Positions 1,740-49,878 of a stretch of 64,000 nt of DNA are shown here, piece after piece; position 1 is the stretch's first letter, and the number at the start of each line of letters is the position of its first letter. The stretch lies in NCBI RefSeq assembly GCF_009389715.1, contig NC_052399.1, positions 21,545,646 through 21,609,645 on the forward strand. The letters are read 5' to 3'. Position numbers and translations under genes: made by a program. The DNA is from Phoenix dactylifera (lineage: Eukaryota > Streptophyta > Magnoliopsida > Arecales > Arecaceae). The notes under the pieces were generated by a model. That model made no database searches, was not told the DNA's origin, and saw only the letters and a program-made list of their open reading frames with translations.

Positions 1740-2582
1740 ATGCTTCCAAAGACATTCCTCCTACTCTCTCTGCTTCTCCTTTCCACTTCATTCATTCCAA
1801 ACGTGACAACTGCTAGGGAGCTTGTTAAGCCAAGTGAGCCTGATTTATATTTCCTCCCAAGAAGTAAATTTAATCTATCATGTTCTTTCCTACTCTTTTA
1901 TGCTTGACCTCCCTACTGCACCAAGACATGGGCCATATGTATAAAAAATAAGCATTTAGCTAGGGTAAGTTGAATGTTTTTTTTTTTTTTTTTCTTCTAA
2001 AAGACCGCTAAAATATCATTTATATTTGCTTTATATGCCATGCTATCGAATCTAACTCATGATCAGAATCCATCTCATTTCTTAGCTCAACTGGTTGGCA
2101 TCCATCTCGATCTCGAAGAGATCCAAGGCTCAAACCTCGGCGGTGGTGCTGCCATCATATTTTTCTTAAAAAAAACAAAAGAAAAGGAAAACAGTGGGCT
2201 TAAGTATATTCTGTGTCAGCTACATATATATCCTACCCCTAGATGTTCTCACCCTTGCCAGAATCAGCTAAGCTTAGGTTTTAGTGTGTTCCCCCTCGTA
2301 AGAAATCATAAAAATCTTTTCCGCTGCAAGAAAACATTCCAAACATAATTATATCTTGCTTGTTGGTTAAATCTGAATACGGATATAACTTGCTATTGGT
2401 GCATGGGTGCAGCAACTGGTGGCCAGACGCCTGTGGATGCCACGCGCGCCGTCCCATATCGTGCGGTCCGGCCACCAAGGTTACCCTTGGTGCCTCCTTC
2501 TCCCCTTCACAATGTTCACCCCATGCCATATCGTCGTAGGTGCGAGAAGAACTATTACCATTGTCGACCCCCGGTCCCATAG
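1740..2582 (+). CDS. Small secreted peptide precursor, gene 1 (two exons, 87 aa)
   Basis: Spliced coding sequence join(1740..1833, 2413..2582), 264 nt, 87 residues. Exon 1 encodes a classic signal peptide (MLPKTFLLLSLLLL...) with probable cleavage before ARELVKP. The donor is AA/GTGAGC, the acceptor GTGCAG/CAACT, the intron 579 bp and phase 1. Exon 2 reads TTGGQTPVDATRAVPYRAV, then a proline-rich stretch, then a basic Cys-containing end: PYRRRC at 70-75 and a second Cys at 82, followed by RPPVP and a stop. Length, signal peptide and conserved C terminus fit a secreted peptide hormone or a small antimicrobial-type peptide. The tail 'PYRRxC...C' recalls the second Cys pair of RALF peptides, but only two Cys are present, so assignment to RALF is weak. 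Gene structure matches 10673, 23713 and 49009. The splice model is from sequence only. Confidence 0.6.
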
Positions 2583-3248
2583 CTGCAGAGTAAAATCGTA
2601 GGTGTACCACCAGTAATGGCTGCAGCGGGTGCTACATCCTCGCATATATTTAGCGGCCGCATCATGATGTCATCTTCGGTTTGTTGTACGTGTACTGCGT
2701 ACCTAATGGTAATTGGGAATTTTAAAGATGCTGCGTCGTTCTGTTGCTGTTGCATGGAGTTACGGGCTCTCTCTTATCCACTTCTTTTTCACTATTTTTT
2801 GCAATCCTCGTTGCTCAGATGGGAATTTTGACATCCTCTACTCCTTGCATTAATTATTAAATGGCTGCTTGTCCGAGTTGTTTCCAACACCGGATCCCCT
2901 TTAAAAATTAAAGCCTTCGTGTGTCGCTGAGCTGGTGGACTCGTCAATCTACGGACCAACACATACAAAGGTGCATGCATCCCGTTCTTTTTCTTCTTTT
3001 GGTCCGAATTGTTGCATGTTGGTTCATAGTTGGGCTGATCCACTGCAACCCATAATCACTTCTGGCAGAGAACGCTGCGTGGGAACTTTGGTAGCTGCGT
3101 TTTCTACGATGATGCACCCTGAAATAGTTGACCACGTTCTCCTATCTTGTTCTTCTCCCCTCCAGTTCCTCCTGATAACTTGCTGCATCTCGTGCACCGA
3201 CAATTTTCCTCCATTCTTGCAATCAGCTATATGTATACATACATATAC
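2583..3248 (+). repeat. 3' flank of peptide gene 1, duplicated at 11345-11900
   Basis: Downstream of the stop the sequence matches 11345-11700 closely (for example 'cctaatggtaattgggaattttaaag'). The block around 3170-3230 matches 11830-11890. It is presumably 3' UTR and flank copied with the gene. No further gene was seen. Confidence 0.6.
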
Positions 3249-3256
3249 GTTTACAT

Positions 3257-3432
3257 CAGGGCCGGCCCGAGCCCTAGGCGACTGAGGCGGTCGCCTAAGG
3301 CCCCGGGCCAATGGAAGGCCTCCGGGAGCAGAAGCTAGCTACGAGTCTTCCCCCTTGATGGAAGGGAGGTGGAGGGTTTCCTGGCCTGCAGAGGGCAATC
3401 GGGGAAGTTGGGGACAGTAGTTTTGTTTTGGG

Positions 3433-3470
<38 letters not shown>

Positions 3471-4258: not shown

Positions 4259-5515
4259 TGACGGAAGTAGAGGAAAAATCACCGGTCGGATTAAGCTGCC
4301 AAATGATGCCGTCACAATTGGAATTTGGAAGAAAGCTGAAAAGATGGCATGCAACTGAACGGATTCTTTGCATGCTACTGGAGGAAGTATAAAACCACAT
4401 TTGAGATTCTATATCTGGCACCTGAGATTAAAAAATTTATCAGCAATGCCAGATTTAAGATGGCGAGCCCGATAAAGGTGGGGGGAATAATTCGTCTGGA
4501 AACGGGCCGGGATGGTCCGGGCTTTAGGCTAGGCTTGGTCCCGCAAACTTTTGAAAATTTCTGGTCTGAGCCTCGGCTTGGTCCCAACTTGAATCCGATC
4601 AGGCCCAGCTTGAAATATCTGTATGGGCTCAAAATTGAGCTGTGTTTTTTTGATAAAATAATATAGCTTCATGTTAGCAACCATTTAATGATCAGAAACA
4701 TCTTCACTAAAAAATCAAATTCTAAACACGATTGAAATAACATTTCTATTTTTTAAGCTGTTCATAAATAAGTACCTAATTGAATAAACCTCAGACAGAC
4801 ATGACTAAACCAGTTCTTTAACGATCAACTGTGGTGTATCAATAGAGAACTCTTTTTTTCATACTTCATTTTCTAAATTATCTGATTTCTTGCTTGCTGG
4901 TGCCAAGTGACTGCCCCATTCTCTTCGTTGGATGTAAAACTTGAAGCATATGCATGAAAGGAAATTGTTGCTATAAAAGCACCTTGATCAGCTATCAAAG
5001 AGAAGTTGATGAGCCTGAAGTTGGCTCATGAAAATGCCATACACCTGAGCCAAAAAATACAAGCAAAAATCACTTGCTCAGAAGGACCAACAAAATTGGT
5101 CTTTAGACTGCAAGTTGAGTGATTCTACCATGAGGTATGGCAATGTACACAAAACATGGACCAAAAAATGGTAAACCTACAAATCAACCCCAATGGAACA
5201 CATTATGAGGGATTACATTCAAAAACAAAAGAAAAGGAAAGCAAAAATTTGTAGCAATTAATTGATGGCCCAGGACTACAAAACTACACTTGAAACTTGA
5301 AACAATTCAAACTCCACCCTCAAACACTCCTTTTATTGTGCTAATTAGAGGGAAAAATGATCAGACCTATTTTGGACTGAGCAACAAAGTCAGGGCTATT
5401 TTGGAAATTATCGGGCTAGGTTTGGGTTCCATTTTGGGCCTCATCCAAGCTCAGGTCAATGATATGCTCGACCCTGGCTTGAAAAAAAAATATATGCTCT
5501 ATATTTAAACCTATA
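4259..5515. repeat. Dispersed repeat block, copy 1 (with LINE end)
   Basis: This begins with about 230 bp of LINE sequence (minus strand, matching 7546-7990). It continues through a GGGCC-rich segment and an AT-rich part with landmark 'ttgctcagaaggaccaacaaaattgg'. The same block recurs at about 7546-9120, 47243-48440 and 52780-55140. No coding sequence beyond the LINE remnant was seen. Confidence 0.6.
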
Positions 5516-5517
5516 TC

Positions 5518-6952
5518 CCTGGCATTATCGAAAATACCACCCTCTGGGACTTTGCCCTCACAATCATTGAATGAAAGATTAAGATAATGTAGAGAACAAA
5601 GAGACTTGAAGAAATTTAGAATTGGCCCGGATAAGTTGTTTCGAGAAAGATCCAAGTCCACCATTTCTTTCAAGGATTCAAGTCCTTGAGGAATGCTGCC
5701 TTTAAAAAAGTTGCCATGCATGTATAGGTGTTCCAAGAGCTGGCAAGCACCTAAGGTGGAAGGGATGTCATCGGACAATCAGTTCTCGGAGACATCTAAA
5801 CGATTAAGGTTAATCAAGTTGACAACTTCCATTGGCATGGTCCTGGTGAGATAATTATGCGACAGGTCCAAATATTGTGCAAAAGAGGAAATGCTGATGA
5901 GTTCTCTTGGTATGCTTCCAAGAAAAGCATTGTGGGAAAGGTTTAATACTCCCAACTTTCTGCAATTTCCGAAGCTTGCAGGGATATTACCGCTTAGTTC
6001 ATTTTCTTGCATATAAAGCTCGTTCAATTGAGCGAGGTTGCCAATAGTAGAGAGGATCGGTCCTGATAATTTGTTTCCTGATAAGTACATCACATGTAAG
6101 TTCTGAAGCTTTCCTACAGTCTCTGGAATTTCTCTTGTGAAAAAGTTTTGATCTAGGAAAAGCATGGTTAGGCCGACAAGATTCCTTATCTATGCAGGAA
6201 CGGGCCCGGATATTTAATTTTTTTCCAATCAATAACCATTCAAGCTGTGTGGAGAGATTGCCTATCGAACTAGGCAGTCGGCCTCAAATTTGTTCTGGTG
6301 CAGGTTTAATCTCTCCAAAAAGCTACAATTAGTTAGAGAAGAAAAGACGCTCCATTCATGGGCTTGGAGCTGATTCCAGCCAATGTATAAATAGCACAAG
6401 TTCTGTAGGGATCCTAGATTAAGGCACCAATCCACTGAATGAATTATTGGAAAGATCAAGCATCTGAAGCTCGGAAGCATTGCATAATGAAACTGGGATC
6501 GGTCCATGGAATTGGTTCCCTTGCATGACCAAGTTTTGGAGGATCGGAAGAGTAAGTCCCATATTCGATGGAAGTGTCCCGGAGAACCAATTGCTTGCGA
6601 CACCAAAATAAGCGAGCGAAGAGTGGTTGTACAGAGAAGTTGGGATTTGGCCAGACAAGTTGTTGATGGTCAAATCCGGCTCTTGTAGGTCGGGGATGTT
6701 GCATAGGCTTTCTGGAATGCTTCCCACCAAGTTATTGCTGGCAAGATAAATATACTGGAGAGAGGAGAGGTTCCCCAATGAAGACGGGATGCCTCCTGAA
6801 AGTTGGTTCGTAGACAGCCCAAGGAAAGAAAGGCTTGAGGGGATGGCCAAGAAAGGTGGCAAACCTCCTCTCAGATTGTTCATTGCTAGATCAATATAGG
6901 CGAGGGATGAGCTGTTACCTAATGATCGGGGGATCTCTCCCGTGAGACTGTT
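5518..6952 (-). pseudogene. LRR receptor kinase pseudogene, ectodomain only
   Basis: This matches the middle of the intact LRR kinase ectodomain at about 38893-40325 almost collinearly, at about 90% identity by eye. It encodes tandem LxxLxxLxLxxNxLxGxIP repeats, for example LNLSFNDCEG and LSGPILSTIGNL. The frame is interrupted several times: readable stretches lie near 5779-6165 and 6419-6964, joined only by shifts near 5779, around 6165-6300 and near 6420. There is no signal peptide, transmembrane segment or kinase. The left edge falls inside the juxtamembrane part of the ectodomain and the right edge inside the LRRs, so this is a duplicated gene piece with no promoter. Confidence 0.85.
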
Positions 6953-10672: not shown

Positions 10673-11344
10673 ATGCTTCCAAAGACATTCCTCCTACTCT
10701 TTCTGCTTCTCCTTTTCACTTCATTCATTCCAAACGGGACAACTGCTTGGGAGCTTGTTAAACCAAGTGAGCCTGATTTATATTTCATCCCAAGAAGTAA
10801 ATTTAATCTATCATGTTCTTTTTTGCTCTTTTATGCCTGACCTCCCTACTCTACCAAGACATGGGCCATATGTATAAAAAATAAGCATTTAGCTAGGGTA
10901 AGTTGAATGCTTTTTTTTTTTCCTTTTCTTTTCTTGAAGATCGCTATAACATCATTTATATTTGCTTTATATTCCATGCTATCGAATCTATCTCATTATT
11001 AGAATCCATCACAATTCTTAGCTCAACTGGTTGGCATCCATCTCGATCTCGAAGAGATCCAAGGCTCGAACCTAGGCAGTGGTGCTGCCATGATATTTTT
11101 CTTGAAAAAAGAAAAGAAAACAAAAACAAAATCAGCTAAGCTTAGGTTTTAGTGTGCATCCCCCGTAAGAAACCATAAAAATCTTTTCCGCTGAAAGAAA
11201 ACATTCCAAACATAATTATATCTTGCTTGTTGGTTAAATCTAAATACGGATATAACTTGCTGTTGGCGCATGGATGCAGCAACTGGTGGCCAGACGCCTG
11301 TGGATGCCACGGACCGCATCGGATATCGACCCCCGGTCCCATAG
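10673..11344 (+). CDS. Small secreted peptide precursor, gene 2 (shortened paralog, 52 aa)
   Basis: Spliced model join(10673..10766, 11280..11344), 159 nt, 52 residues, intron 513 bp, phase 1, same donor (AA/GTGAGC) and acceptor (GATGCAG/CAACT) as gene 1. The signal peptide (MLPKTFLLLFLLLLF) is kept. Exon 2 begins TTGGQTPVDAT and ends RPPVP like gene 1. However, 105 bp (35 codons), including the proline-rich part and both cysteines, are missing in frame. The conserved Arg after the signal peptide (ARELV) is changed to Trp (AWELV). It is a tandem-type duplicate of gene 1 with promoter and 3' flank. It may encode a truncated, altered or non-functional product; the open frame survives. Confidence 0.5.
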
Positions 11345-12135: not shown

Positions 12136-12280
12136 ATGCATGGCCCAGGCGCTAATACAAAGCTTGGTGTGGTGGATTATAGGATGCATGCCCAGGCTCT
12201 GACGCTGGCGGTGCTCTCGGGTGCAACGCTGCTACACTATTACGACGCCAAGCATGCAATTGAGGACGACGAAAAAGTTC
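12136..12280 (+). pseudogene. HIG1-domain (hypoxia-induced) protein gene fragment
   Basis: The open frame reads RMHAQALTLAVLSGATLLHYYD, very like the conserved (A)R(L/M)HAQALTLA.L.GA...YYD segment of plant HIG1-type mitochondrial inner membrane proteins, which support respiratory supercomplexes. A possible 3' splice site (cctgtatag) lies just upstream, and the similarity fades after the Asp/Lys-rich stretch, about 12280. The N-terminal part and first membrane helix are not seen nearby, so this looks like one isolated exon. Whether it is spliced to anything is unknown. Confidence 0.5.
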
Positions 12281-13081
12281 AAGGGGCTTATAATATGTCC
12301 GTTACTTTGTTAGCAATGGCCATAAAAGTGAGAAGCAATGATGTTGTTGAGGGGGTAAGACTACTACTCTCGGCATCTTGCCCATTTGTACTTGGTATAT
12401 ATGGACTACGTTATATGATTTTGAGCATATATATGAACGATTTCAATCTAGTATGATCTCTTCTGTGACAAATTTCTCCGCCTGGTGTGATCAAACTTAA
12501 TGCTTTCATCAGGGTGTTGAAAATTTGAGAGAGAAAAAAAATATATATATCCTATATTGATGGATGAAGTGATCAAGGCGGATACCTTGAGCATCATCAA
12601 GTGTACAATATGGCAGTTTGCCAACTTCTCCATGCGGACTGTGTGCATAGGGTTCGTGTTCGTGTGTAGAATGCAACGGAGGATGCATTTACCTAAATAT
12701 CTTACCCTGTTTGATTAAGCTAATCAGCCAAAGTAATCACATGCTATCAATCATCTATTGGACCACCCATGTTTGTTATACTATGATAATTTGGCTAATA
12801 ACATCACATTGTTCTTCCAAAAGACTGACTTGTCGTGTAAAGTTCTTCGGCCAAGCTAATCTGATATGATAACATCCAATGTGTTGCTAAACCGAAATCT
12901 TATTTGAGTTGCACTAAGTTGGCAGAGGTTAGCGTTTAGACCTTTGTACCGAGCTTAAAAGTCTACCTCTTGCTTTTGGATTGCTTACCCCATATCCTAA
13001 GTAACTTGGACCAATCAATTGCAAATCGGTCAAGCCACTGGCTTACTGAATAAAAAACAAATGGGTAGAAAGGATAGGATT
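12281..13081. other. Intergenic, no gene
   Basis: AT-rich sequence with no recognisable coding region, RNA gene or clear repeat ends. Confidence 0.4.
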
Positions 13082-13276: not shown

Positions 13277-13278
13277 AA

Positions 13279-14198: not shown

Positions 14199-17100
14199 TT
14201 ACATTGCAAATGCATTTCTAATTGCACTCATTTTGTTGACCACAGTTTGCATATCCAGCCGCAAATTTGGTGCTTCCTGTGAACACAAGAGACCAATATC
14301 AACCATGGAGACCGAGCATTCCATCATTCTCTCCCTAACAATGCTTTCACTCAGACTGCCAGTTTCCATGCTTGAGAGCACACTAGGGTCCATTATCTCC
14401 ATTACTCTCTCAGGGAACCCCATCTCAACAAAATTACGAAGCGACCAACCATCTTTAAACATATCATCAGTAGGCCTCCTTCCTGTCAGCAGCTCTAACA
14501 GCAGTATCCCGTAACTGTACACATCTCCATGCGTAGAAACCTTGGCGCCCGTGCCATACTCTGCAATTCATATTTAGATGTTCATAGTATAGTAAGTTTC
14601 CAAAGCTTCATGAAGACTTCAATCGAAAAAAATGTGATGCAAGTTCAGAATTTTTACCTGGAGCTATGTATCCTATCGATCCTTTTAATGCGATCGAGTA
14701 ACTCGGGTTTTGAGTTGAGGCGGAGTTGTTTCCACGTAGAAACCTTGCTAATCCGAAGTCACCCAGGTGAGCACACATCTCGTTGTCAATCAGAACGTTG
14801 CTCGGCTTCACATCGCAATGAACAATCGGAGTCGGGCCATGGTGATGATGAAGATACTCTAGAGCAAAGGCAACATCAATGGCTATGTCCAACCTTTGAG
14901 CAAGGCTTAAATACCTTGACTCGCAACTGTCGGATACCTTGGGATGTAACCATTCTTCTAGACTCCCATTTGGCACAAACTCGAAGACTAGAGCTTTGAA
15001 ATCATTTCCACTGCGATCGATGCTTGAACATGTAGTAATGATCTTGATGAGATTCCGGTGCCTTATATTTCTCAAGGCTTCACATTCAGCTAGATAACTC
15101 TTCAAAGCTCCTCTTTCATGGAGGTTGAGTACCTTCACTGCAACAACTTTGTCGTAGGCATCTAGAATTCCTTTATACACAGAACCAAAGCTCCCGACCC
15201 CAATCAGATTGACAGAAGAAAACCCATCAGTTGCTTTGTGCAGTTCGGCGTAAGAAACCAATTTATATTGATCCCCTGATGAAGACTCAGATGGGCGTCT
15301 CTTTCTTGGGTATTTCTTCCAGCAGAGAATGGCTAGCAGAACAATCAAACTAAGAGCTACCATGACAATTATGAGTATATTTTTGAGTGAAGCAAATGTT
15401 TTTCTTGCATTCGAGCACGAAGGAAGCAGCAACCTTGGATCACCCCCACAGAGCTTATCATTGCCTTGAACAAAAACTTCACTCGTATTTGTAAAGAGAC
15501 CTTTAACTGGTACCGGACCCTCAAAATCATTGAAAGATAAATTGAGATATTGGAGGGTACCAATGTCACTGAAGAATTCTGGGATTCGGCCAGACAGCTT
15601 GTTGCGCGAAAGATCAAGCCGTTGGATACTTTTCAGATTGCTCAACTGCAAAGGAATGCGCCCCTCAAAGAGGTTTCCTTCCATGAAAAGGTCATTCAAG
15701 GTCACACAATCACCAAGAGCACTAGGAATTTCACCAGAGAGTTTGTTTTCAGAAATATCAAGAAGAATAAGAAGATTCAACTTGCGGACATCCGATGGTA
15801 CGGACCCAGCCAGAGAATTATGGGACAGATCGAGGACCTTTGTAAGAGAAGAAATGCTGAGAACCTCACTCGGTATGGTGCCACCGAGCTGGTTTTGGGA
15901 AAGGTCCAGCACATTTAGATGCATGTAATTTATGAAGCTTTTTGGAATGTTTCCTTGCAAATTATTGCGTCCCAACTGGAGTACTTCAAGCTGAGCGAGG
16001 TTGCCAAGCGAGGCTGGTATTGGCCCTGAAAATTTGTTCCCAAACAAAGTTAATCGAACCAAGTTGTGAAGCTTCCCTATTGTACCAGGAATGTTGCCGC
16101 CGAGAAGGTTATAACTCAGATCGAGTTCCTGTAATCCCTTGAGATTCTCAATCTCTCGAGGAATCTGCCCTGATATTTGAAGCATGGGCAACAATAGCTT
16201 TTCCAGTTGCGTGGAGAGGTTTGCAATAGATCTGGGAAAATTGCCTGCAAGAGCATTGCTGGAGAGATCCAACAATTTTAGATTTGTACAGTTGGTTAGA
16301 GAAGCAAGAAAACTCCAATCACCGGCATTCCTTGCCTCGAGCCGGTTGTACCCAAGTGTTAGGCGAGATAGATTCTGAAGCTGTCCTAGATTCGAAGGCA
16401 CGGGTCCACTAAATTTGTTACGAGAAAGATCAAGTAGTTGGAGGTTCGAAGCATTCGATAGCGAGGGTGGAATAGGTCCTTCCAGCTGGTTCCCCATCAC
16501 GCAAAGATATTGGAGTCTAGGGAGGGTGCGGCCCATGCTGGGTGGAAGCCTTCCGATGAAATGATTTGATGCCAAACTCAAAAACTCCAAGGACGAGAGA
16601 TTGTACAGAGAAGAGGGAACCATGCCTGATAATTTGTTGTATGATAAGTCAAAATATTTCAAGCTTGTGATGTAGCCAAGACTCTCCGGAATTTCCCCCT
16701 CCAATCTGTTTGTTCTTAGATAAAGAGAGATCAGTTTGGAGCAATTACCAAGCGAAGGTGGTATGGGTCCTGTGAGACTATTTTGACTAAGAAGGAGATA
16801 CGTGAGGGTGGAAAGGTTCCCTAGAGAAGGTGGAATGATTCCTGTAAGACTGTTGTTTGATAGCATAACAGTAGCGAGCGAAGGGCTCCTCCCCATCCCA
16901 GGTGGAATGAGACCAGAAAATTCGTTAGTGCCAAGATTTAGCGAAGAAAGTTTTGGAAGAGAGAAGAGCTCATCAGGAATCTCTCCGATGAGGAGGTTAG
17001 CTTCGAGAGAGATGCTGCGGAGGTCCGAGCACTGGGCGAGGCTGGAGGGGAGCCACCCACTTAGCTTGTTGTTGCCCAAACTAATATTTTGGAGTTTGGA

Positions 17101-35759: not shown

Positions 35760-35764
35760 GGGCT

Positions 35765-37475
35765 TTGCTTCAGAATTTATTTAGTTCTGTATACCTGGGG
35801 ATGCAAATGATATATAATAGGCTGTTAACCTGATTCATTGGTCATTTAATGAGGGGAATCTGGATTTGAGAAAGTAGTCTAAGTAGATCTAAATCTGCAA
35901 AATGCCATGCAATTATGGTCAGATTTGGTTTTAGTCGGAATATTTCAAGAAACTGAAAACCAATCACACGTACCCACTTCATTGTCTGAGAGTTTTCAAG
36001 GAACCCTGTATCACCTACTCCGCATTTCACGATCTCATCTTCATCTTCATCTCCATCTCCATCAAGAACATTTTTTGGACTCAAAACTAACAAGAAGAGC
36101 CCTTAAGGGGCGAGCAGGACGCTCGGAGTCTCGCTCCTACCCGGCGGGCTCTGGTACGCGTTCTGCCGTTCCATAATTGCCCCTGCCGGTTCCCCAAATC
36201 CAGTGCCGGTACGCTTCACTGGTTCCTCTATTTTTGAATTACTTCGCCCGACCCCAATTAATTAACTTTCTGCCTGCAAGCTATTTGTTTCCTGGGCTCT
36301 GAAGACCTGGTATGTTGGAGTCTCGTGTTTGATGTATTTGCTGATATACCTCATCTCTACCACTCAGCGGTACTTTCATTTTACCGTGCATCTAATCTTT
36401 TTTATATCTATCTCTATACCTCATAACTTGTATCCTGCTCGCTAACATGCTCGTCGGGAAAAAAAATCCCTCCTTGAAAATGTTTGAATTAATCTCTGCT
36501 GTCTAAGATTCTCCTGTGGAAGCAAAATTTGTTCAATAATTTACAACTGATTATCTTTATATAGATCAGCTATGGAAGTAATTCTGCTTTCTTAGTATTA
36601 CTTATTATAATTTTGATTTCTATATGCACAATGCATGCTTCCAAATATGCACACATTTATTTTATTTAAAAATATAGATCCATTCCATTTATATGTACAA
36701 CAATGTTATATTATTTGCTTTGCATATTAATTTTACAGAGATGTTTTGTATTATAATTTTATGTAAGTTTTAATGGGTTAGTGCCAGCTTAAAGTAACTT
36801 AACACAGTCATCCTTGTGTAGCACAATTATCCTTGTGTTCTTAAAGCTTAAATAGGATTAAAAACTGGTGGTGGGATTTGAGCCATGATCTCTTGGTATG
36901 CCTTTCTCACCGAGGGGAGCAATATTCCTTTCATTGTTTCTAATCTCTCACTCCTGATGGTGGAACACAAAAGCGTTTAATCAGGCTTCATTTTGATTCA
37001 ATATTACCCATAATAGGTGTTGTGGTTGAAATTTGGCCTGAGGGTGACCACGCAGGAGGTGGTCGAGAAGACGCCGGCTGGGTGGAACACAAAAGCATTG
37101 AATCAGCTTTCATTTTGATTCAATATTACCCAGAATAGGATATAGGTTCAGCACACAATCGTGAGTCTCTGACATGGAAATGATGATGTGTAGAGTTGGA
37201 TTTCATTACGCTCTTGAAATTGAATATAGAAGTTGATTCTTTGAGTAAGTCCTTTTAAGATTACCAAAACAAAATGCACAATGTAGAAAAGCAGAAATCC
37301 TTTTTGATATCAACTTTAAATTATTCCCAATCTATGCTTGCTCGCTTAAGTACATAATCTATTGATAGGCCACCCTTATTAAGAAAAAAGAGAAAGAAAA
37401 AGCATAAGATTACATCAAGCTCCCTTCTTACATAAACAAACTAGAAAAGTAGAAATACATATATAACTGAACTTT
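35765..37475. other. Intergenic; right part duplicated at 62344-62794
   Basis: 35765-36840 is AT-rich with no gene seen. From about 36835 the sequence is the 3' flank of the LRR kinase gene and matches the flank of the third kinase. A piece around 'ggtggaacacaaaagc..ttcattttgattcaatattaccca' is doubled (about 36960 and 37081). Confidence 0.5.
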
Positions 37476-40400
37476 CTACTCGTTATGAGGTAGATTTGCC
37501 CCCTCTTCAAAGATTTCGACCACCGATAACCTGTCTTTAACTGCCTTGAGTTTATTGGCAACATCTCGCATGTCCATTCGTTCTTTAGGCGATTCTTTCG
37601 AGCACGAAAGCCCAATTCCAATTAATGAAGTAATGCATCTCCTCATTCTCATCCTGGCAGCATTTTCATTTCTACCGTTGTTATTAGCTTCTTCGCATTC
37701 TTCTTGCAGGATCTGGAGATCCAAAATCTCCATGATTCCTTCTGGAAAAGCTGTGTCGACAAATTTATGAAGATTTAGACCATCCTTGAACATGTCGTCT
37801 GTAGGTTTCTTTCCCGTAAGCGTCTCTAGCAAGAGTATTCCATAGCTATATACGTCTCCCTGCGTAGAGATTTTGCTGCCCATCGCATATTCTGCATTTC
37901 ATTGGTACATCGGTTGCAGAGTAATTGATATATAGTTTAGAAATGAAGATAATTTTTCAATCAAACAAAACATAGACTTATGTCATGAAGTAATCCATAT
38001 AGTTATCTGCAATTTCATTCAAGTATGCATATGAAAGAGAGATGAGAGAATATTTTTGAGCTCTTACCCGGTGCGACATATCCGATGGATCCTTTTATCC
38101 CCATCCAACTTGTTGAATTCTCAGATGTTGCAGAGCTGGAAGTAGGGAGAAACTTTGCTAAGCCAAAATCACCCACATGGGCAGTCATATCATTGTCAAG
38201 AAGAATGTTGCTTGGCTTGAGATCACAATGAACAACGGGCACTGCATTGCCGTGATGTAAATAGTTCAAACCAGAGGCCACATCGATGACTATGTTTAAC
38301 CTTTGAGTAAGGTTCAGCTTCTTTGCCTGGTCATGTTCGGGAGCTTTTGGATGCAACCACTCTTCTAGGCTCCCATTAGGCATGTATTCAAAGACTAGAG
38401 CTTTAAAGTCATTACCTCTTGAATCAACAGTCGAGCATGAAGTAATGATCTTAACAAGATTCCTGTGGCGCATGTTTCTTAAGGCTTCACATTCGGCACT
38501 GAAACTCTTTAGCGCTCCAATTTGATGAAGGTTGAATACCTTCACGATGATGGTATTCTCTTCAAGATCTATTTTCCCTTTATACACCGAACCAAAACTT
38601 CCGATGCCGACCAAGTTGTCTGAAGAGAAGCCATTAGTTGCTCTGTGGATGTCCGCATAAGATAATTTCTTGTACTTGCCCTCCATATTGGAGACAGAGT
38701 GAGATTTTTCCCCCGTCTTCCTTTGTCGACAAAGAATGGCCAGCAAACACAGCATAAGGACTATGGCGGCACCTGCAACTGGTATTGTAACCTTGAGGAA
38801 CATCCTCTTTGAAGCTTTGATAGAGCAAGGCGGCAGCTGCCAATTGGGATCACCTCCACAGAGCCTCCTATTCCCAAGGATAGAAATTTCGGTGGCATTA
38901 TCGAAAATACCACCCTCTGGGACTTCGCCCTCAAGATCATTGAATGAAAGATTAAGATAATGAAGAGAACGAAGAGACTTGAAGAAATCTGGAATTGGCC
39001 CGGATAAGTTGTTTCGAGAAAGATCCAAGTCCACCATGCCTTTCAAGGATCCAAGTCCTTGAGGAATGCCGCCTTCAAAAAAGTTGCCTTGCATGTATAG
39101 GTGTTCCAAGAGCTGGCAAGCACCTAAGGTGGAAGGGATGTCACCGGACAATCGGTTCTCGGAGACATCTAAACGATCAAGGTTAATCAAGTTGTCTACT
39201 TCCATTGGCATAGGCCCGGTGAGATAATTATGCGACAGGTCCAAATATTGTGCAAGATTAGAAATGCTGACGAGTTCCCTTGGTATGCTTCCAAGGAAAG
39301 CATTGTGGGAAAGGTTTAATACTCCCAACTTTCTGCAATTTCCCAAGATTGCAGGGATATTGCCGCTCAGTTCATTTTCTTGCATATAAAGCTCGTTCAA
39401 TTGAGCAAGGTTGCCAATAGTAGAGGGGATCGGTCCCGATAATTTGTTTCCTGATAAGTACATCACATGTAAGTTCTGAAGCTTTCCTATGGTCTCTGGA
39501 ATTTCTCCCATGAAAAGGTTTTGATCTAGGTAAAGCACAGTTAGGCTAACAAGATTCCCTATCTCTGCAGGAATGGGCCCAGATATTTGATTTTTCCCAA
39601 TCAATAGCCACTCAAGCTGTGTGGAGAGATTGCCTACCAAACTAGGCAGTCGGCCCTCAAATTGGTTTTGGTACAAGCTTAATCTCTCCAATAAGCTACA
39701 ATTAGTCAGAGAAGAGAAGAAGCTCCAGTCATGGGCTTCGAGCTGATTCCAGCCAATGTACAAATAGCGCAGGTTTTGTAGGGATCCTAGATTGGAAGGC
39801 ACCAATCCACTGAATGAATTATTGGAAAGATCAAGCATCTGAAGCCCGGAAGCATTGCATAATGAAACTGGAATTGGTCCATGGAATTGGTTCCCTTGCA
39901 TGACCAAGTTTTGGAGGTTAGGAAGAGTGAGGCCCATATTCGGTGGAAGTGTCCCGGAGAGCCTATTGCTCGCCACACCAAAATAGGTGAGCGACGAGCG
40001 GTTGTAAAGAGAAGGTGGGATTTGGCCAGACAAGTTGTTGATGGTCAAATCCAGCTCTTGTAGGTCGGGGATGTTGCCTAGGCTTTCTGGAATGCTTCCC
40101 ACCAAGTTATTGCTAGCAAGATAAAGATACTGGAGAGAGGAGAAGTTCCCCAATGAAGACGGGATGCCTCCTGAAAGTTGGTTCAGAGACAGCCCGAGGA
40201 AAAAAAGGCTCGAGGGGGTGGCTAAGAAAGGTGGCAAACCTCCTATCAGATGGTTCTTTGCTAGATCAATATAGAAGAGGGATGAGCTGCTACCTAATGA
40301 TCGGGGGATCTCTCCCGTGAGACTGTTGAATGATAGGTCAAGATATTGAAGGGATAAGCTGGTTCCTAGCAAAGAAGGGATGCCTCCCGTCAGACTATTG

Positions 40401-41266
40401 TAGGATAAGTTGAGATATGCAATTGGGCTGCTACCTAGCATGGGTGGAATTTCGCCAGTGAGGTTATTGTTTGATAGATCAAGAGCATGCAAAGAAGAGC
40501 TATTTCCTAGCAATTGTGGGATTACTCCAGCAAGGTTGTTATCTGATAGGAGAAGAACACTAAGGAATGAGTTGTTGGCCAGGAATGGTGGAATGCTTCC
40601 TGTGAGACGATTGCCTGAAAGATCAACCTGGGTGGGCGATGGGCTACGTCCCAACAAAGGAGGAATGCAGCCTGTGAGATTGTTATTGCTTAGAAAGAGG
40701 TTGTCAAGATTTTGAAGGGAGCTGAAGTCGGTGGGAATTTCTCCACTGAGTTTGTTGTAATCTAAACTAAGGGTTTGGAGGTTCAAACACTGACCAAGAT
40801 TGGACGGGATTTCCCCTTCAAGAGAGTTCATACTTAGGTTAAGGTACTGAAGTCGAGAGAGACGACCTAGCTCTTGTGGGATGTGTCCGTTGAGTAGGTT
40901 ATTCGGTAGATAGATTCTTCTAAGAAAGGTGAGGTTGGATACGTCGGGTGATATGACGCCTGTGAGGTTGAGGGAATCAAGGACCAAAGCCGTGACCCTT
41001 TGTGGGTGTCGCCGGCCACAAGTGACGCCCAACCACCTACAGCAATTGTGGGATTCGTTTCTCCAGGAGGTCAAGGCTCCAAGAGGGTCGGATAGCAATG
41101 ACTTGAAGGCAAGGAGAGCTAGCTTGTCGGTGGCAATGTTTGGGAGGATGGGATCAGGAGCAGCAGCAGCTAGTGCGGAGTAGGAGTGCAAGGAGCATAA
41201 GCTGAAGAGAAGGATGAGAGCTATTGGCTGGAGTACTCTAATATTGTTTACTTGTGGAAGATCCAT
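37476..41266 (-). CDS. LRR receptor-like kinase, LRR-XII (EFR/XA21-like), non-RD, large ectodomain
   Basis: Coding sequence complement(join(37476..37891, 38068..41266)), 3615 nt, 1204 aa. The 176-bp intron follows GYVAP and joins to EYAMGSKIS in frame. In order: signal peptide (VLQPIALILLFSLCSLHSYS), LRRNT with CCRWLGVTC, over 25 LRRs, a Cys-pair cap (RRLCGGDPNWQLPPC), a transmembrane helix (VAGAAIVLMLCLLAIL, near 835), and a kinase with [12 protein letters not shown], catalytic Lys in IIVKVF, HCDLKPSN (non-RD) and DFGLAKF. It is longer than the 14199 gene by about 100 residues, mostly extra LRRs. The Met at 41266 is the only one ahead of the signal peptide, and a TATA box lies about 75 bp upstream. 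All kinase motifs are present. Expected role: plasma-membrane receptor for a microbial pattern or peptide; the ligand is unknown. Confidence 0.93.
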
Positions 41267-42692: not shown

Positions 42693-44809
42693 TATCACGC
42701 CCCGAACCCACCACCCGGGTCCGGTACGCGACCGGCCGCATGAGCCCTAGAGCAATGCCCTAAAGATCATGTAAGGCCTAAGATAAACAAAAAATCCAAT
42801 AAATCCATAACTAATTAATTGATTCAAATTGACAAATCCAACATGTTCAGATAATCAAATTGGTTCAATTACAAAAGCTTTCAATGTTCATTGATATCAA
42901 GATAAACTAACTAACTAATGACTCTCATACTCGCACTCTGCGCTCATCCCATCCATGTCTTTGCATCCTGCAACTCTGAAAAAAAAATAAGAAGGGAGGT
43001 GAGCTTTACAGTCCAGTAAGAATTTCTACACATCCATACCAACACAATAATAATATGAATTTGAAAAACCACGACAAATCGATGCACATTTCATGAAATC
43101 ATAAACAGTTTCCAAAAGGCTCAAATAATCAATATAAGTATGTACGTCAAATATCAATGAAGGTCCAGCCACATAGGAATGATATAGCATATGATAGCTC
43201 ATAAATCTTCATTACTATTTACAATGCTTTTTCTTTCCATTCTCTATTAACTTGATCCGAATCAATTATCTTTCTGACTTTGGGCTACATCCCGGTCACG
43301 TTTCCGGCCTGTGATGGGGCAATCGATAGTATCACATTTCCGACCTGTGATGGGGCAATCGATAGTATCACATTTCCAGCCTATGACGGGGCAATCGATA
43401 GAATCACATTTTCAGCCTGTGACGGGGCAATCGATAGTATCACATTTCCAGCCTGTGACAGGGCAATCAATAATATCACATTTCCAGCCTATGATGGGGC
43501 AATCAATAATAACGAGATAAGCCCAAAGTTCCTGTTCATTTAATCAATTCGCAAACACACATCAATCCCTTTTTCCACTTTATTTTCAACCTAGACTAAC
43601 CATGGTCACGTTTCCGGCCCGTGACAGGGCAATCAATATAATATGGTTAGTCCATACCACCACATTCATAAATCCGATTATGCAGGTATAGGTTATACAC
43701 ATACATGTATCCATTATAATACCAATCACAAGCCAACACGATCAAAATATAATTTAATATAAAACTATTTTTGCTTTATCTCGATCATAGCATATTAGCA
43801 TATATGGTGCAAAAATATTTATATCATGCAGAATTGGCGTACAAGGATTCTTACTCTTTGTTGAAAACTCAGACAAACTAATCACCGCCCTCATAGCGAT
43901 CTATGAACCGGAATGCGCATGACTCCACCCAACATCCTTTCGTCCAATAGATTGTTCCCCTACAGAATCAAGACAATATTAAAAGTTACCCAAGATATCT
44001 GACAACCCAAAGCTCTCTATGGATCCTCTCAAGGGTCTACAAGTATCTAGTACCCCAAGACTAACCAACAATTCATGATCTCCCTGAATTAAATTAGAGA
44101 GAAAACAGACTAATAAGAGACAGCAACTAGAGGGAGAAGATAAAATAACAAAGAAGAGAGAGAGTTGGCTCTCTCTCTCTCCCTCTCTTCCTTCTTCTTC
44201 CCGTCAATAAAACAACAAAGAAGAGAGAGAGTTGGCTCTCTCTCTCTCTCCCTCTTCCTTCCTCCTTCCCGACGGAAAGGAGGAGAGTGCTTGGTAGCCG
44301 GCGGCCCATGGCCGGCGACACCCCATGGTGGTGCCACGCCCGGCGACGGCCGGCCGGAACAGAAGGGGAGAAGGCCGAACAGAGGCTCGGCTTTCCCCAT
44401 CAGCCCAGCGGCTTTCCGTCCACATTCCTAAGAAAATAATAGCCAAAGACGAAGGAGAAGAAGGAGAGGGTGCTCACCTTACCTCCGGCGAGTTCCTCCG
44501 GCAAGATCGGCGGTGAACAACCCAAGTTTCTCACGGATCCCTTTTTTTTTCCTTTTTCTTTTGAACGGCACTCGGTTGATGCCCTAGGATGAGGAGAAAG
44601 GGATCTTTGTATAGATGGAGATTGGTTCCATTTAGGTAAGATTTAATCCCCCTTTTTCCTCTTTTTTTTTTTCCTCTTGCGTCGGATTCGGGGAGGGGTT
44701 GAAACAGGGGAGGGAGAAGACCCTGTTCGGGAGTCTCCCTCCCCTTCACATGAGTCGGGCCGGTGCTGTGGTTAACGGGCCGGGCTGGCTCAAAAATGTG
44801 GCTCTTACA
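42693..44809. mobile_element. Long solo LTR (probably Ty3/gypsy), 2.1 kb
   Basis: Fossil. It begins TATCACGCCCCGAACCC, a common start motif of long plant gypsy LTRs (usually TGTCACGCC), and ends CTCTTACA. It is flanked by the 5-bp duplication ctaaa (42688-42692 and 44810-44814). There are no coding parts, so it looks like the product of LTR-LTR recombination. It contains a 36-bp tandem repeat (43302-43516) and two copies of a CT-rich segment (about 44150-44250). The CT-rich, GC-rich right part probably lies near its transcription unit. Confidence 0.7.
43302..43516. repeat. 36-bp tandem repeat, six units
   Basis: The unit 'atcacatttccagcctgtga' plus 'tggggcaatcgatagt' is repeated six times, with a seventh degenerate copy near 43604. 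The period is a multiple of three, so a translation gives ITFPxCDGAIDS repeats, but there is no sign of a gene. Confidence 0.9.
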
Positions 44810-44814: not shown

Positions 44815-46142
44815 TGATATGATTGGATTCATATTTTATAATAAAGCTATATTCATCAAAATATTTTTATATTAAAGCATAATTTTTATAACACATATGC
44901 TGATTCATAAATTTAAGAAAAGTATAATATTTCCACAAGCAAATTTTATGTATGAAAAATATGATCATTTGAAAAATAATGAGTGAAACATTTACTTACC
45001 TATTTCATCTTAGACTATCAAACTTTACTAGACAATTTAGTTAACCCTATTAAAAACATTAAAAGTGAAATTAATGTCTGTTTGATGTTTTTAATCGAAT
45101 AATAAGAAATATGGATGGTTAGTCGGATGATAGCATTTGATGATTCTGAGTAGGTCAGGTCTGAGCGATTCGATCAATAAATCATAGGGCATGGAGTCAA
45201 TTAGAGCCAAAGTCGTTTAACATAACTCATCATTAGTGGGTTCTATAGACACTTGACAAGGCTGGGTGATCGATCCAGTAGGCGACTTGTGCACAGGTCA
45301 GTTTAGGGCCTCTTTTCGGAGATCAACTCAAGTTTGTAGATCAGATCGACAGAACCTGACATCGGGTTCCTTTGATCTTCTAGAGAGAGAAAGTAGAGAG
45401 AGGAGAGAGGAGAAAGGAAGAAGAGAGAGTCTTTCATCTCTCCTCTTTTCTTCTTGGATTAAGGGGGTGGAGGCCACCAAGCGGCCGACTCCTGTGACGG
45501 CGGCCCAAGGCGATATCTTTGCCAAGGCATCGCCGGCGACAATGGTCGGCTGGCGCAAGAAAGAAAAAAGGAAGAGGATCATCAGCGAATCGATCAACTC
45601 AGCCTGATCATGGCTATTTTTCTAACCCACAACCATATGATCTCAGGGGTCCCCATGGGCGGCAAGGCTCGGCCTCTTTTCGGTGGCCAGTGGCGGCGAG
45701 CACAGGAGGAAGAAGCACTGAAACAAGGCACCCCTATTTTGGATTAAATTTCGGCGATTAGCCGGCTCAAACCCAAGTAAGGACTGCTATAAACCTAGGA
45801 AAGAAGGAGAGGAAGGCAGGCAACACTCATCTCGGTCCGGTGAGGTTCCTATGGTCCTTTTCGGCGACAAATCAGAGAGAAGATTTGGAAAAGAATCATC
45901 GAGATGGGTGGTGATTCCTGGAGAAATCGATGATGGCTTTCAATGGAGTTAAATATGCAAAGTTCCAGAGTTCTACTCGAACTTTGATTGCCTGGATATC
46001 TTCAATTTCTACTGGAATCAGAGGAGGAAGAAGACTCCTATCTCTGCTGGATCATGATACAGGGCATGGTGGCTTTAGGCCTAGCCTCTTCAGACCGGCT
46101 CGCAAGCCCAAGGAAGCACCAAGAAAAACTGGGTTATTATAG
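44815..46142. other. No gene recognised
   Basis: 44815-45250 is AT-rich. 45350-46140 is richer in GC with a GA-rich tract (45380-45440) and LTR-like composition, but I could not find ends or coding parts. Confidence 0.35.
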
Positions 46143-47237
46143 TAATGATCTTAACAAGATTTATCTGTCGCATGTTTCTTAAGGCTTGGCGTTGAAACTC
46201 TTTAGCGCTCCAATTTGATGAAGGTTGAATACCTTCACGGTGATGGCATTCTCTTCAAGATCTACTTTTCTTTTATACACGGTGTTGGGGGAATGCAAGT
46301 TCCCCCGAGTACATGAGAGCCTTGCCGGTACGGGATCGGACGACGGCCGACCTCGGACGGCCGAACTTGATGCCCGTCTTCAGAACGCCCGACCTGAAGG
46401 GCGCCCGACCCCGGGAGTCGGACTCCACCGACTCGCAGGATCACGCCTTAGGCGGCTTACTCCACAATTAATGCGTCTGACCTCTGCACGCCTTAGGCGG
46501 CTTACTCAACAATTAATGCGCCTGGTCCCAGGACACCTCAGGCGGCTTACGCCATAATTAATGCGTATGGCCTTCGCAAATCTTCGGCCTGCTCTACAAT
46601 AAATGCATGGCTCCCGGCTGTCTGCAAATCTCTAGATCGCTCTCGCAAATCTCCGGCCTGCTCTACAATAAATGCATGGCTCCCGGCTGTTTGCAAATCT
46701 CCAGATCGTCACATCGAGCCAGCTCGGTTGCAAGGCAATTTCTGATTCCGACCTCGACATAGCATTAACTTCCGCAGCCATGCATCAATTCAGGCAGTGT
46801 ACCTGATTGTATGATGACTCACCCCATCACATCACAGGTAACCCAGTATCCCCTTATAAAAGGGATACCCCGCTACCTTAGCGAAAAAGGCACTCCCTCT
46901 CTCTGGAGTGGATATTCCACCTTCTACTTTTGCCCCCCTCAGACTTAGCCATCGGAGGGCCGGCGCCGGAAAACCCGGCTACCGGCTTTTTGCAGGTTCT
47001 CCCCGGAGGACGCCGCCCGCCGACGGACCGTCGCCGCCCGCGCCAGCTTCTTCTCGCCGGAGCCCCTGTCTTTCCGGTCCAGTGGTCGCCCCCGGGCCCA
47101 GTTTCCAGCAACACACGGAACTAAAACTTTCGGTGCCAACCAAGTTGTCCGAAGAGAAGCCATTAGCTGCTTTGTGGATATCCGCATAAGATAATTTCTT
47201 GTACTTGGGGGGAGATTTTTCACCTGCCCTTTGTGGT
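46143..47237 (-). pseudogene. LRR kinase fragment split by a solo LTR
   Basis: 46143-46282 and 47114-47237 match 38431-38580 and 38580-38735 of the intact receptor gene. They cover the stretch from just before the kinase P-loop to the 'RNMRHRNLVKI' region. A small deletion near 46186 removes part of the SFSAECEA segment. No other part of the gene is present. The two halves are separated by the LTR at 46283-47113. Confidence 0.8.
46283..47113. mobile_element. Solo LTR, 831 bp, in the kinase fragment
   Basis: Fossil. Starts TGTTGGGGG, ends CAGCAACA, with the 5-bp duplication cacgg on both sides (46278-46282 and 47114-47118). It carries its own tandem repeats: three units of about 53 bp around 'ggcggcttactccacaattaatgcg' (46450-46565) and two units of about 75 bp around 'ggcctgctctacaataaatgcatggc' (46585-46700). 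A TATA box (cttataaaaggg, about 46853) lies ahead of a probable transcription start. Confidence 0.85.
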
Positions 47238-47242
47238 CAACA

Positions 47243-48440
47243 AAAAATATTTGCAACCGTCTAATGATCAGAAACAGGCTTTCTGAAAAATCAAATTCAT
47301 AACACAATTGGAAATGGCATTTCTATTTTCTAAGTTGTTCATAAATAAGTACCTAATTGAATAAACCTCAAACAGGACTAAACCAGTTCTTTAACGGTCA
47401 ACTATGGTGTATCAGCGGAGAACTCTTTTTTTCATACTTCATTTTGAAAGTTATCTGATTCTTTACTCGCTCGTGCCAAATAACTGCTCATTCTCTTCGT
47501 CACATGTAAAACTAGAAGCTTATGCTCGGAAAGGAAATTCTTGCTGCAAAAGCACCTCGATCAGCTATCAAAAAGAAGTTGATGAGCCTGAAGTTGGCCA
47601 AGAAATACAAAGCATAAATCACTTGCTCAGAAGGACCAACAAAATTGGTCTTAAGCCTGCAAGTTGAGTACCCTCCCATGAGGTATGGCAATTTATACAA
47701 AACATGGACCAAAAAAATGATAAACCTACAAATGAACCCCATTGGAACACATTATGAGTTATTACATTCAAAAACAAAAGAAAAGAAAATATTAAACTTG
47801 TAACAATTAATTGACAGATTGGGGGCTACAAAACTGTACCTGGAACTCGAAGCAATTCAAATTCCAGCCACAAACATTTTTTTATTGTGCTAAGTGGAAG
47901 GATTAGCGAACGGTCCTATTCTGGACTAAGCCACAGAGGAGTTGGACCTGTTTTATATACTTAAAAGGACATCAATGAGACTCCCATTAGATGATGAATA
48001 AAATATTTAACAATTTAAAAAATAAAAATATATTTTTTAGAAAATATTGAGGATTTATATGGTTAGTTTCTGCGAACCATACGATGACATCAAGGATACG
48101 ATGCTGAGGCCCTACAAATTGCTTGGACATGTTTGCATCCACGCGTTCTCAGAAAGCAATTGTGCCAAGACCAGTTGCGGGTCTCCCCGCTCCTTTCAGC
48201 GAGTGGTTTCACACTTTCTCATCACGTCAGAATGCAGCATCTCAGTATTCTTTTGTCAGAATCTAGGAAAAATGAGACCAAGCGACCAGCGAAAAGGAAG
48301 AGACAACTAGCAGAACCGGTAGTGATCTTTTCCTGAAACGATCCAAGACTTGGCCAAAATAAAAACCTTCTTCCGATGCCATGCTAAAGGTATTTCGAAT
48401 TAGCTGCGATCTGGCTAGGTCAAATCAATATTTCTTCTCC
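47243..48440. repeat. Dispersed repeat block, copy 3
   Basis: Same block as 4670-5480 and 8210-9560, running up to the peptide-gene promoter module. No gene was seen. Confidence 0.6.
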
Positions 48441-48800
48441 GTGGCATGGGACACGATTATTCCGTAAAGCGGACCAGAGATGCTTTTCCTGGGACACAAT
48501 GCTTTGTTCTCTCGAGTCTTTAGGACTTCAGGAGGTAGGCAGTAGGTGGACATACCATCACTTGTAGACTCCACCAAGTCATCCACCCATGAGCTAAAGG
48601 ACCATGAAAATGCAATTTTCTCCCGCCTACGTACCTCGTGTCTGTTTCCAGCTTCCGCTTCTTTTACCCCATGGAGCGTGTTCGGACCGACATTATTGCT
48701 CCAGCGGAAGAAAAACAGCATCTTCCACACTTGTTCAGGGGAAAGAAACCATTCTAAAGACGCGGATGAAGTCATTCTTTCATGACTGATTCAACGAAGA
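48441..48800 (+). promoter_or_regulatory. Promoter module upstream of peptide gene 4
   Basis: Contains the block 'accatcacttgtagactccaccaagtcatccacccatgagcta' shared with genes 1 and 2, then a second block ('ttattgctccagcggaagaaaaacagcatcttccacac') shared with 57310-57370 and 61018-61080. I see no clear TATA box between here and the ATG at 49009. Confidence 0.45.
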
Positions 48801-49008
48801 CTTCCTTCTTCCATCTCTCTCTTCTGTCTCTAGAGTTTATTTCTTAGAGATAGTGATTGCCTCCTACCTCCTAATTCTATTTTCCGGCAGGACAGCGCTT
48901 TCCTGGAAGTTTCTTATAGACTGTCGTCGACAACCTGCTTGCCTAATGCCTACAAGTAGGAAGTGTTCGCGGATGTTGGACGGGGCAAGTTTCGTGGTTG
49001 GGAATAGG

Positions 49009-49878
49009 ATGGCTTGGAAGGCTCTTCACATTCTCTCCATGCTCCTGCTACTTTCAAGCACTACTCTCGTCTCCCTTGCCCGTGATACCGGCGTTGTAGC
49101 AAGCCCACCTTCGCCACTACGTCGTGAGTATCCCCAACTAATGATTTAATCTCTATTCACAGGTTTTTTTACGCCAAAAATGCTTTAGTAACTCGAAATA
49201 TCACTCAGGCGGGGTGGTGTGTTCTCGCTCCTCCCTTTGAATTGGTAACGTGCATGAACTATACTATACCATTTAATGAAGCAAGGTAGCAATTTTTCTG
49301 AGTTATCGTAGCATGACTCTAGTTTGTACAAAACAGCGAACGCCAGGTGATCGCGGCAGGGATGAGGGCCATGTAATTGGGTGGCCGGTAGAGCCCTAGG
49401 TCAACACGACTTGCCGGATTGGGTTCATATTTTGAGCAGCCAGACTTGGGCTTTAGATATCTCGATTGGCCCTGGAACCAACTCGGGTATGGCGCAGTCG
49501 GACAAAACTCATTAATGTATATGGGGCCGTTATTTGTTTCATTTAGGTGAATTAAATTTTAATTATTAATATATAACAAAGCCGCATCGACTTTGATGGT
49601 GTGCCAAGTTGTGATTCCAATAAAAAGAACCGCCATGTGTTTTCACGCTATCAGAGCCATTTCTAATCTTTATTTTTAAGCATTTATTTTTCACTATAAT
49701 TGATGCAGAGAAGGAAGGACCCGGCGCGAATCTTCCCTGTGCAGCAAATCACATCACAGGTCATCCATGCCCTTCGTCCGGGGGCTCGAAAAACCATGCG
49801 TTTAACGCGCAACCCCCCCCAGTTGTTCGCCAAATGTATACAAAGGGATGCAAAAGTATTTATAGCTGCCGTAGATGA
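49009..49878 (+). CDS. Small secreted peptide precursor, gene 4, RALF-like Cys pattern (94 aa)
   Basis: Spliced coding sequence join(49009..49123, 49709..49878), 285 nt, 94 residues. Donor CGTC/GTGAGT, acceptor GATGCAG/AGAAG, intron 585 bp, phase 1. The signal peptide MAWKALHILSMLLLLSS would be cut near SLA/RDTG. The mature part contains NLPC (Cys 49), Cys 59, and the end YTKGCKSIYSCRR (Cys 86 and 92). The spacing C-x9-C-x26-C-x5-C has the first and last spacings of RALF peptides, and NLPC and YxxGCxxIxxCRR match the RALF NVPC and YxRGCxxIxxCRx blocks. It lacks the RRxL site and YISY motif, has a longer middle loop, and has an intron, unlike most RALF genes. So it is a divergent RALF-like candidate rather than a firm member. 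Upstream in-frame ATGs (such as 48973) would hide the signal peptide and were not used. Confidence 0.6.

Follow-up and report, generated by a model that had tools for sequence, protein, structure and literature searches.

We analyzed a 64,000-nucleotide stretch of the genome of the palm Phoenix dactylifera (contig NC_052399.1, here C8, positions 21545646-21609645; "the window"), in which four small plus-strand genes, g1 to g4, are interspersed with genes for receptor kinases. Our results suggest that g1 and g2, two further copies on the same contig (g1b and g1c), and probably g4 and its paralogue g4b, are divergent two-exon palm genes for RALF-related peptides. We put the probability of this reading, together with the mode of action proposed below and an origin of the arrangement by local duplication, at roughly 0.6. 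The genes would then represent a new, two-exon and two-Cys form of RALF-related peptides, found in a palm and lying beyond the reach of the RALF model of Pfam.

In each of the four models, exon 1 encodes a hydrophobic N terminus and is followed by a phase-1 GT-AG intron (579, 513, 468, and 585 bp in g1, g2, g3, and g4, respectively) and a short exon 2. A preliminary description of the window had proposed this layout, with introns of 468-585 bp, and the models are present as described; they also support its suggestion of a small two-exon type of gene for peptides with predicted secretion. Exon 1 of g1 (1740-1833) encodes a putative signal peptide with an ARELVKP end at the donor GTGAGC, the exon-1 protein being 90% identical in g1b and g1c; exon 2 (2413-2582) encodes a variable middle part and the C-terminal, RALF-related PYRRRCEKNYYHCRPPVP (87 aa in total). 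Exon 1 of g2 (10673-10766) ends in AWELVKP, and its exon 2 (11280-11344) is 105 nt shorter than that of g1, in frame, and retains the PPVP end; the Cys pair is gone, and the gene (52 aa) is probably decayed. The g3 gene (exons 23713-23818 and 24287-24429; 82 aa) reads MMAPKT...ASRELI in exon 1 and ends in GCPPTCNP. The g4 gene (exons 49009-49123 and 49709-49878; 94 aa) reads MAWKAL...LARDTG in exon 1 and, in its probably RALF-related exon 2, C-x9-C followed by YTKGCKSIYSCRR. The stops of the four genes end at 2582, 11344, 24429, and 49878. As the preliminary description pointed out, three of the four genes encode Arg behind the predicted cleavage site (g2 has Trp instead), and three carry two Cys close to the end. 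Cysteines number two each in g1, g1b, g1c, and g3, four each in g4 and g4b, and none in g2. A TATA box lies 70-71 bp 5' of the ATG in g1 (TATAAAAG at 1669-1676 of the plus strand, by consensus only), g2, and g3; none was seen within 150 bp before the ATG of g4.

On the plus strand, a model scan of the window recovered g1, g3, and g4. It gave no model on the minus strand and none when the plus strand was Markov-shuffled 20 times. This result is tilted towards the models, because the rules of the scan were fixed after the models had been seen; its minimum exon-2 length excludes g2. An open exon-2 frame is weak evidence by itself, because exon 2 is stop-poor in other frames too (a second frame is also stop-free in five of the six g1- and g4-group copies). 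The length of exon 2 as a multiple of three was discarded as uninformative, since it is set by reading to the first in-frame stop. Taken as a whole, g1, g2, g3, and g4 are probably real genes, with predicted splicing and secretion.

The whole 773-Mb assembly (2391 contigs) was searched for further copies. Besides g1 and g2, the g1 query found two other two-exon loci, g1b at C8:21136059 and g1c at C8:21141331, and a DNA search with the promoter, exon 1, and early intron returned the same four places. The only paralogue of g4 that was found, g4b (C8:21792173), has an almost unchanged exon 1 and a heavily changed exon 2; for g3, the whole-genome search gave no second copy. Across g1, g2, g1b, g1c, g4, and g4b the introns measure 513-844 bp, and precursors are 80-111 aa long in all of these except g2, the coconut protein described below included. 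The four g1-type copies reach a common in-frame stop (CCATAG) despite exon-2 lengths that deviate from that of g1 by 105, 21, and 24 nt. Among the aligned indels of five copy pairs, 13 of 22 in exon 2 have a length divisible by three, compared with 7 of 44 in introns. A reading frame that begins with MHGPG.NTKLGVVDYRMHAQ occurs both 3' of g2 (window 12136-12456) and between g1b and g1c (C8:21137795-21138422), apparently a gene piece that travels together with the g1 block.

An alignment of six peptides, searched against 5.8 billion proteins with at most 100 words (7597 candidates), had a single match, the 80-aa coconut protein COCNU_03G015980 (E = 2.2e-3). Its identity to g1 is 49% in BLASTP and 55% when the sequences are multiply aligned. 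It spans both exons and therefore supports the splice model unless the coconut protein is itself merely predicted. Conserved in g1, g1b, g1c, and coconut are PY.R.C, a Tyr, the second Cys, and the PPVP end, the middle being variable. The strong difference among mature ends noted in the preliminary description thus holds between g1, g3, and g4; in the g1 group the final ~18 residues are kept (PY.R.C..YY.C..PPVP, of which g2 retains PPVP alone) and it is the middle that varies. Searched alone against the protein database, g4 gave six candidates and zero homologues, and g3 zero candidates; nothing in the PDB matched g4.

The coconut protein also provided a link to RALF peptides. Used as a genome query, it retrieved g1b, g1c, g1, and g2 plus five places of a tandem set on contig C4 (E = 4.5e-4, 7.1e-4, 0.03, 0.125, and 0.28), all five of which pass the Pfam cut-off for RALF. 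The C4 copy whose full sequence was read is a one-exon gene encoding a pro-region, RRLL, GYKAL, and NPYTRGCPARYYCR (NPYTRGC...CR); it scores 28.7 bits against a RALF cut-off of 22; RRLL is present in all five C4 pieces read. When exon 2 of the g1 group (g1, g1b, g1c, and coconut) was aligned by hhalign with ten RALF pieces from the same genome, the match reached 95.3% (E = 2.4e-8), a score attained by 0 of 60 column shuffles. The ten pieces were trimmed by hand, and an eleventh (from C37) was excluded owing to the lack of a DSE..R stretch. Against a RALF profile built from the ten pieces, single peptides were equalled by the following numbers of 2000 full shuffles: coconut, g1c, and g4, 0; g4b, 1; g1, 7; g1b, 19; g3, 32. 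With Cys positions fixed, the numbers were 0 for coconut and g1c, 1 each for g4, g4b, and g1, 58 for g1b, and 25 for g3; g4 alone scored 15.6 bits. On these comparisons we assign the g1 group to the RALF-related peptides with good confidence, and g4 and g4b with moderate confidence, so that a family in which the preliminary description recognized no named one can, for the g1 group, be given a name.

The tandem set on C4 (31827637-31870660) comprises five places for two-Cys RALFs, with further Pfam RALF matches at 31884860 and 31947158. Two more local groups of RALF matches lie at C14:24235182-24359853 and C106:499405-675388; of three divergent pieces read from them, two have PPRSG and one PPPSN between the Cys pairs.

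The same data bear on the possibility that the models are chance open frames or decayed genes without a product. Decay is seen in the block, where g2 has lost its Cys pair and two gene-less copies of upstream DNA are found, and both the absence of a TATA box from g4 and the stop-poor exon 2 would fit such an account; we nevertheless consider it highly improbable, given the common in-frame stop of four g1-type copies, a coconut homologue over both exons, the RALF match of the g1 group, and the absence of models from 20 shuffles.

The g3 gene is, judged by its model, a further secreted-peptide gene that we assign to no family. Its exon 1 resembles that of g1 (score reached by 0 of 1000 shuffles), and its exon 2 found no match in the genome, the protein database, or the peptide and RALF comparisons. 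The view that g1 to g4 form one family did not hold up: besides the unmatched exon 2 of g3, a direct comparison of g1 with g4 stayed at chance in both exons, and exon 1 of g4 showed no match to the other genes. NCBIfam yielded nothing for g1 and g4 and only weak bacterial matches for g3. The glycine-rich protein family PF07172, which the AREL start had suggested, was dismissed, there being no Pfam match.

Divergence in these genes is greatest in exon 2. It differs at 26 of 149 sites between g1 and g1b, 30 of 146 between g1 and g1c, and 36 of 131 between g1b and g1c, compared with 20 of 572, 19 of 554, and 25 of 556 sites, respectively, in the intron; for g4 and g4b the figures are 59 of 167 and 69 of 542. 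In these four pairs the excess over the intron is significant (p < 1e-7), and in g1-g2 exon 2 (9/65) does not exceed the intron (41/510; p = 0.096). These five pairs were tested, g2-g1b and g2-g1c being left out. Relative to the downstream flank, the excess is clear for g1b-g1c (p = 4.3e-6) and g4-g4b (p = 1e-4), and not clear for g1-g1b (p = 0.074), g1-g1c (p = 0.071), and g1-g2 (p = 0.22). The g1 intron (window 1834-2412) differs from those of g1b and g1c by 3.5% and 3.4%, with 10.7% and 11.0% in the upstream flank, which suggests a gene conversion patch across about 410 kb; because of this apparent patch, the intron is doubtful as a neutral yardstick for g1 versus g1b and g1c. Exon-2 dN/dS values for seven pairs were 3.17 (g1-g2, 20 codons), 1.28, 0.62, 0.99, 1.24, 0.91, and 0.86. 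Exon 2 is thus fast-changing, without adaptive change being proved.

Several observations weigh against the RALF-related reading. The peptide genes have an intron, whereas RALF genes are usually intronless. Pfam returned nothing for g1, g2, g3, g4b, or the coconut protein, its RALF model (PF05498) gave g4 13 bits (E = 0.23), below the cut-off of 22, and g1b and g1c are absent from the 38 genome-wide matches over that cut-off. Taken alone, g1b is weak, as its shuffle counts show, and the best alignment of g1c sets its first Cys on the second Cys of the profile rather than on the last pair. For g4 and g4b, the profile match to RALF reaches 90.5% if the alignment is set manually at Y.KGC, but only 6% if it is made automatically. 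Directly compared, g1 and g4 do not match beyond chance (exon 1, 79 of 1000 shuffles; exon 2, 81 of 1000), and their kinship for this reason rests on separate matches to RALF. Multiple-of-three indels in exon 2 number only two of four in g1-g1c, three of five in g1b-g1c, and four of nine in g4-g4b, and g4 and g4b end at different stops. Positive selection on exon 2 is not borne out, as dN/dS does not consistently exceed 1; the ratio is ambiguous because synonymous sites of exon 2 are raised too, with alignment trouble and gene conversion in the flanks as possible reasons.

The receptor genes of the window all lie on the minus strand. LRR-B (14199-17709) and lrrA (37476-41266) are LRR-XII-like receptor kinase genes with long open frames and an HCD kinase motif, the kinase end of LRR-B being on its second exon. 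A third copy, lrrC (62795-64000, running past the window edge), lacks its N-terminal half and is frameshifted, so that of the three LRR-XII kinase genes listed in the preliminary description two stand as such. An LRR-XII-like receptor pseudogene (5491-6943) has 11 stop symbols, the final one included, in one translated frame, and a receptor kinase fragment lies at 46141-46282. The HCD motif is present in three kinase domains, which are therefore of the non-RD type, and the best-scoring relative of lrrA among solved structures is FLS2. FLS2 belongs to LRR-XII. By their motifs and the class of FLS2, the window receptors are FLS2-like, LRR-XII-like, and non-RD, in agreement with the interspersion of peptide and non-RD receptor genes stated in the preliminary description.

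In the 264 kb that were read, nine receptor-like stretches occur together with g1, g2, g3, g4, and g4b; five of the seven peptide loci are thus inside the receptor cluster, and g1b and g1c are outside. The lrrA-g4 pair has a second version, lrrA'-g4b, arranged and oriented alike; the DNA of the two agrees along much of its length, the pattern that a block duplication would leave. In the 25.1 kb surrounding g1b and g1c, no LRR-XII match to the lrrA query was found at E values up to 1e-3. Of 1770 receptor candidates, 42 were scored. The next scored receptor from g1b and g1c is at C8:21474594, ~332 kb off, most of the DNA between being unread; with receptors scored to this extent, the 38 Pfam RALF matches all lie at least 0.79 Mb from any scored LRR-XII place on the same contig, and a group of receptor genes on C17 contains nothing that matches g1 or g4. 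As far as the match lists reach, the mixture of peptide and receptor genes is thus one local event. Literature on secreted peptides clustered with receptor kinases included, judged by title, nothing about palms.

These data allow us to weigh the pairing suggested by the preliminary description, in which the peptides would be ligands, or self-decoys, of the adjoining LRR-XII kinases, with linkage kept as for SCR and SRK. Interspersion in the window, the recurrence of the lrrA-g4 pair, and an exon 2 that in most pairs diverges faster than the other gene parts speak for this explanation, and the Brassica S-locus, in the available part of PMC13033167, offers a precedent of linked, highly polymorphic peptide and receptor genes. 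We nevertheless regard it as very unlikely: half of the g1-type copies (g1b and g1c) are free of LRR-XII matches in the surrounding 25.1 kb, the C17 cluster has no such peptides, the repeated pair is explained by block duplication, and RALFs, in the published accounts as far as available to us, use other receptors, namely CrRLK1L/LLG and LRX proteins. The preliminary description had held that the same peptide genes scattered at random in related genomes, without receptor neighbours, would refute its proposal; g1b and g1c come near to this, in one genome only.

We propose instead that exon 1 directs the chain to the cell surface and that, once there, either the whole chain or a C-terminal piece with the loop PY.R.C..YY.C, closed by its two Cys, serves as a RALF-type signal in the apoplast. 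Perception would most likely be by CrRLK1L/LLG or LRX proteins rather than by the adjoining LRR-XII kinases. Exon 2 changes fast, with loop and end kept in the g1-type copies other than g2, and the mixing with receptor genes would be the result of blocks duplicated locally within a single part of one chromosome. An indirect route to the adjoining receptors can be imagined by analogy with Arabidopsis, where RALF23, sensed by FER/LLG1, inhibits the flg22-induced formation of the FLS2-BAK1 complex (from the portion of that literature available to us). If the palm peptides were such indirect modulators of LRR-XII immunity, FERONIA-type signalling would alter the assembly of FLS2-type receptors with BAK1, and linkage would aid co-regulation. 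The FLS2-like neighbours and the RALF23 precedent suit this explanation, which we hold to be rather doubtful, since duplication accounts for the linkage and the RALF-related genes of clade IV are, in the available sections of PMC5258720 on Arabidopsis and maize, expressed mostly in inflorescences.

The same expression pattern makes a reproductive role equally open. Expression in flowers or pollen together with fast change would then reflect reproductive recognition, a tentative possibility to set against the immune type of the adjoining receptors. Quite unlikely, in our view, is a function as direct antimicrobial peptides: the mature parts of g1, g1b, g1c, g4, and g4b, with the cleavage site assumed, are basic (9-17 Lys+Arg versus 2-3 Asp+Glu), Pro-rich (10-14 Pro), and possibly Cys-closed, but RALFs are basic too, and preservation of the C-terminal end would be expected of a signal. 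We likewise give little credence to the bolder idea that a palm RALF-related lineage acquired an intron, dispensed with the standard receptor motif, and diversifies in an LRR-XII cluster owing to an action on the receptors there or on the complexes they form, which would make it a ligand or modulator of FLS2-type receptors that is linked to their locus. If the peptides are active, their location among FLS2-like genes would raise the direct question of whether RALF-type control of immune-receptor complexes is organized at one locus.

Other parts of the window record further duplication and insertion. DNA upstream of g4 (48499-48791, plus strand) resembles in its first ~100 bp the DNA upstream of g1 and g2, and matches piecewise two gene-less copies on the same strand, one at 55377-57431, interrupted by retroelement sequence, and a second at 60638-61087 that combines g1-type and g4-type upstream sequence; the region 55377-61642 containing them is broken by retroelement-like sequence. 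Between g3 and lrrA lies a retroelement (28276-35767) with gag-pol-like frames (30494-35490) and two end repeats of ~369 bp; as these are 99.2% identical, it is probably a young insertion. Tandem arrays occur at 21697-22161 (three copies of a 155-bp unit) and 43260-43544 (36-bp unit).

Several known peptide systems invite comparison. Cys distances are 7 in g1, 6 in g1b, 5 in g1c, 6 in coconut, 6 and 9 in the last pairs of g4 and g4b, and 10 in the first pair of g4. PROSCOOP/SCOOP peptides, which are sensed by MIK2, are not known to have a Cys pair. CTNIP/SCREW peptides (sensed by HSL3) share with the palm peptides a C-terminal Cys pair, two conserved Cys in their case; in the sections of PMC9191895 available to us, candidates were accepted only with Cys 9-11 apart, and all monocot members were unannotated, such annotation gaps being a stated problem for that family. 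Compared by this criterion alone, the g1 group, with Cys 5-7 apart, does not fit CTNIP/SCREW; the last pair of g4 is unlike CTNIP, and the last pair of g4b and the first pair of g4 would fit. Like the SCR/SP11-SRK system of the Brassica S-locus (PMC13033167, available in part), the window links a variable secreted-peptide gene to a receptor kinase gene; unlike it, the g1 to g4 types have zero to four Cys rather than eight, and SRK is an S-domain receptor with demonstrated pairing. A defensin-like or SCR identity was rejected on the same count, eight Cys being required.

The RALF comparisons come closest. RALFs in the strict sense (clades I-III) are marked by the RRXL processing site, the YISY motif, and four Cys in the mature peptide. 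RRXL is absent from g1, g1b, g1c, g2, g4, g4b, and the coconut protein, and YISY is replaced by YRA in g1, g1b, g1c, and coconut, by FITNGAL in g4b, and by nothing in g4; the RALF Cys spacing (x9, x5) occurs in g4 only, the four Cys of g4b being spaced otherwise. The g1 group resembles the two-Cys RALFs of C4 in GYKAL/YRAL, in PYTRGC..YYCR/PYTRRC.YYRCR, and in the missing first Cys pair, and is unlike the fully read copy there, a single-exon gene with a pro-region and RRLL that exceeds the Pfam cut-off. In the available sections of Campbell and Turner (2017; PMC5258720), clade IV peptides, for which the name RALF-related was proposed, average 88 aa, are very variable, often miss the second Cys, lack RRXL almost wholly, and have YISY in 3 of 264 cases. 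The palm genes differ from that clade, so far as it is described there, in the intron after the signal peptide, the PPVP tail, scores below the Pfam cut-off, and, in g1, g1b, g1c, and coconut, a single Cys pair with 4-6 residues between the Cys rather than 5. In the portions of the literature available to us, all maize RALF genes are intronless, soybean has one intron-bearing exception, and EaF82, a clade IV peptide with alkalinizing activity from another monocot, is encoded by an intronless gene. What the palm peptides share with clade IV, on the same partial account (PMC5258720), is a short precursor without RRXL, a degenerate YISY region, a C-terminal Y.R.C...C, and high variability.

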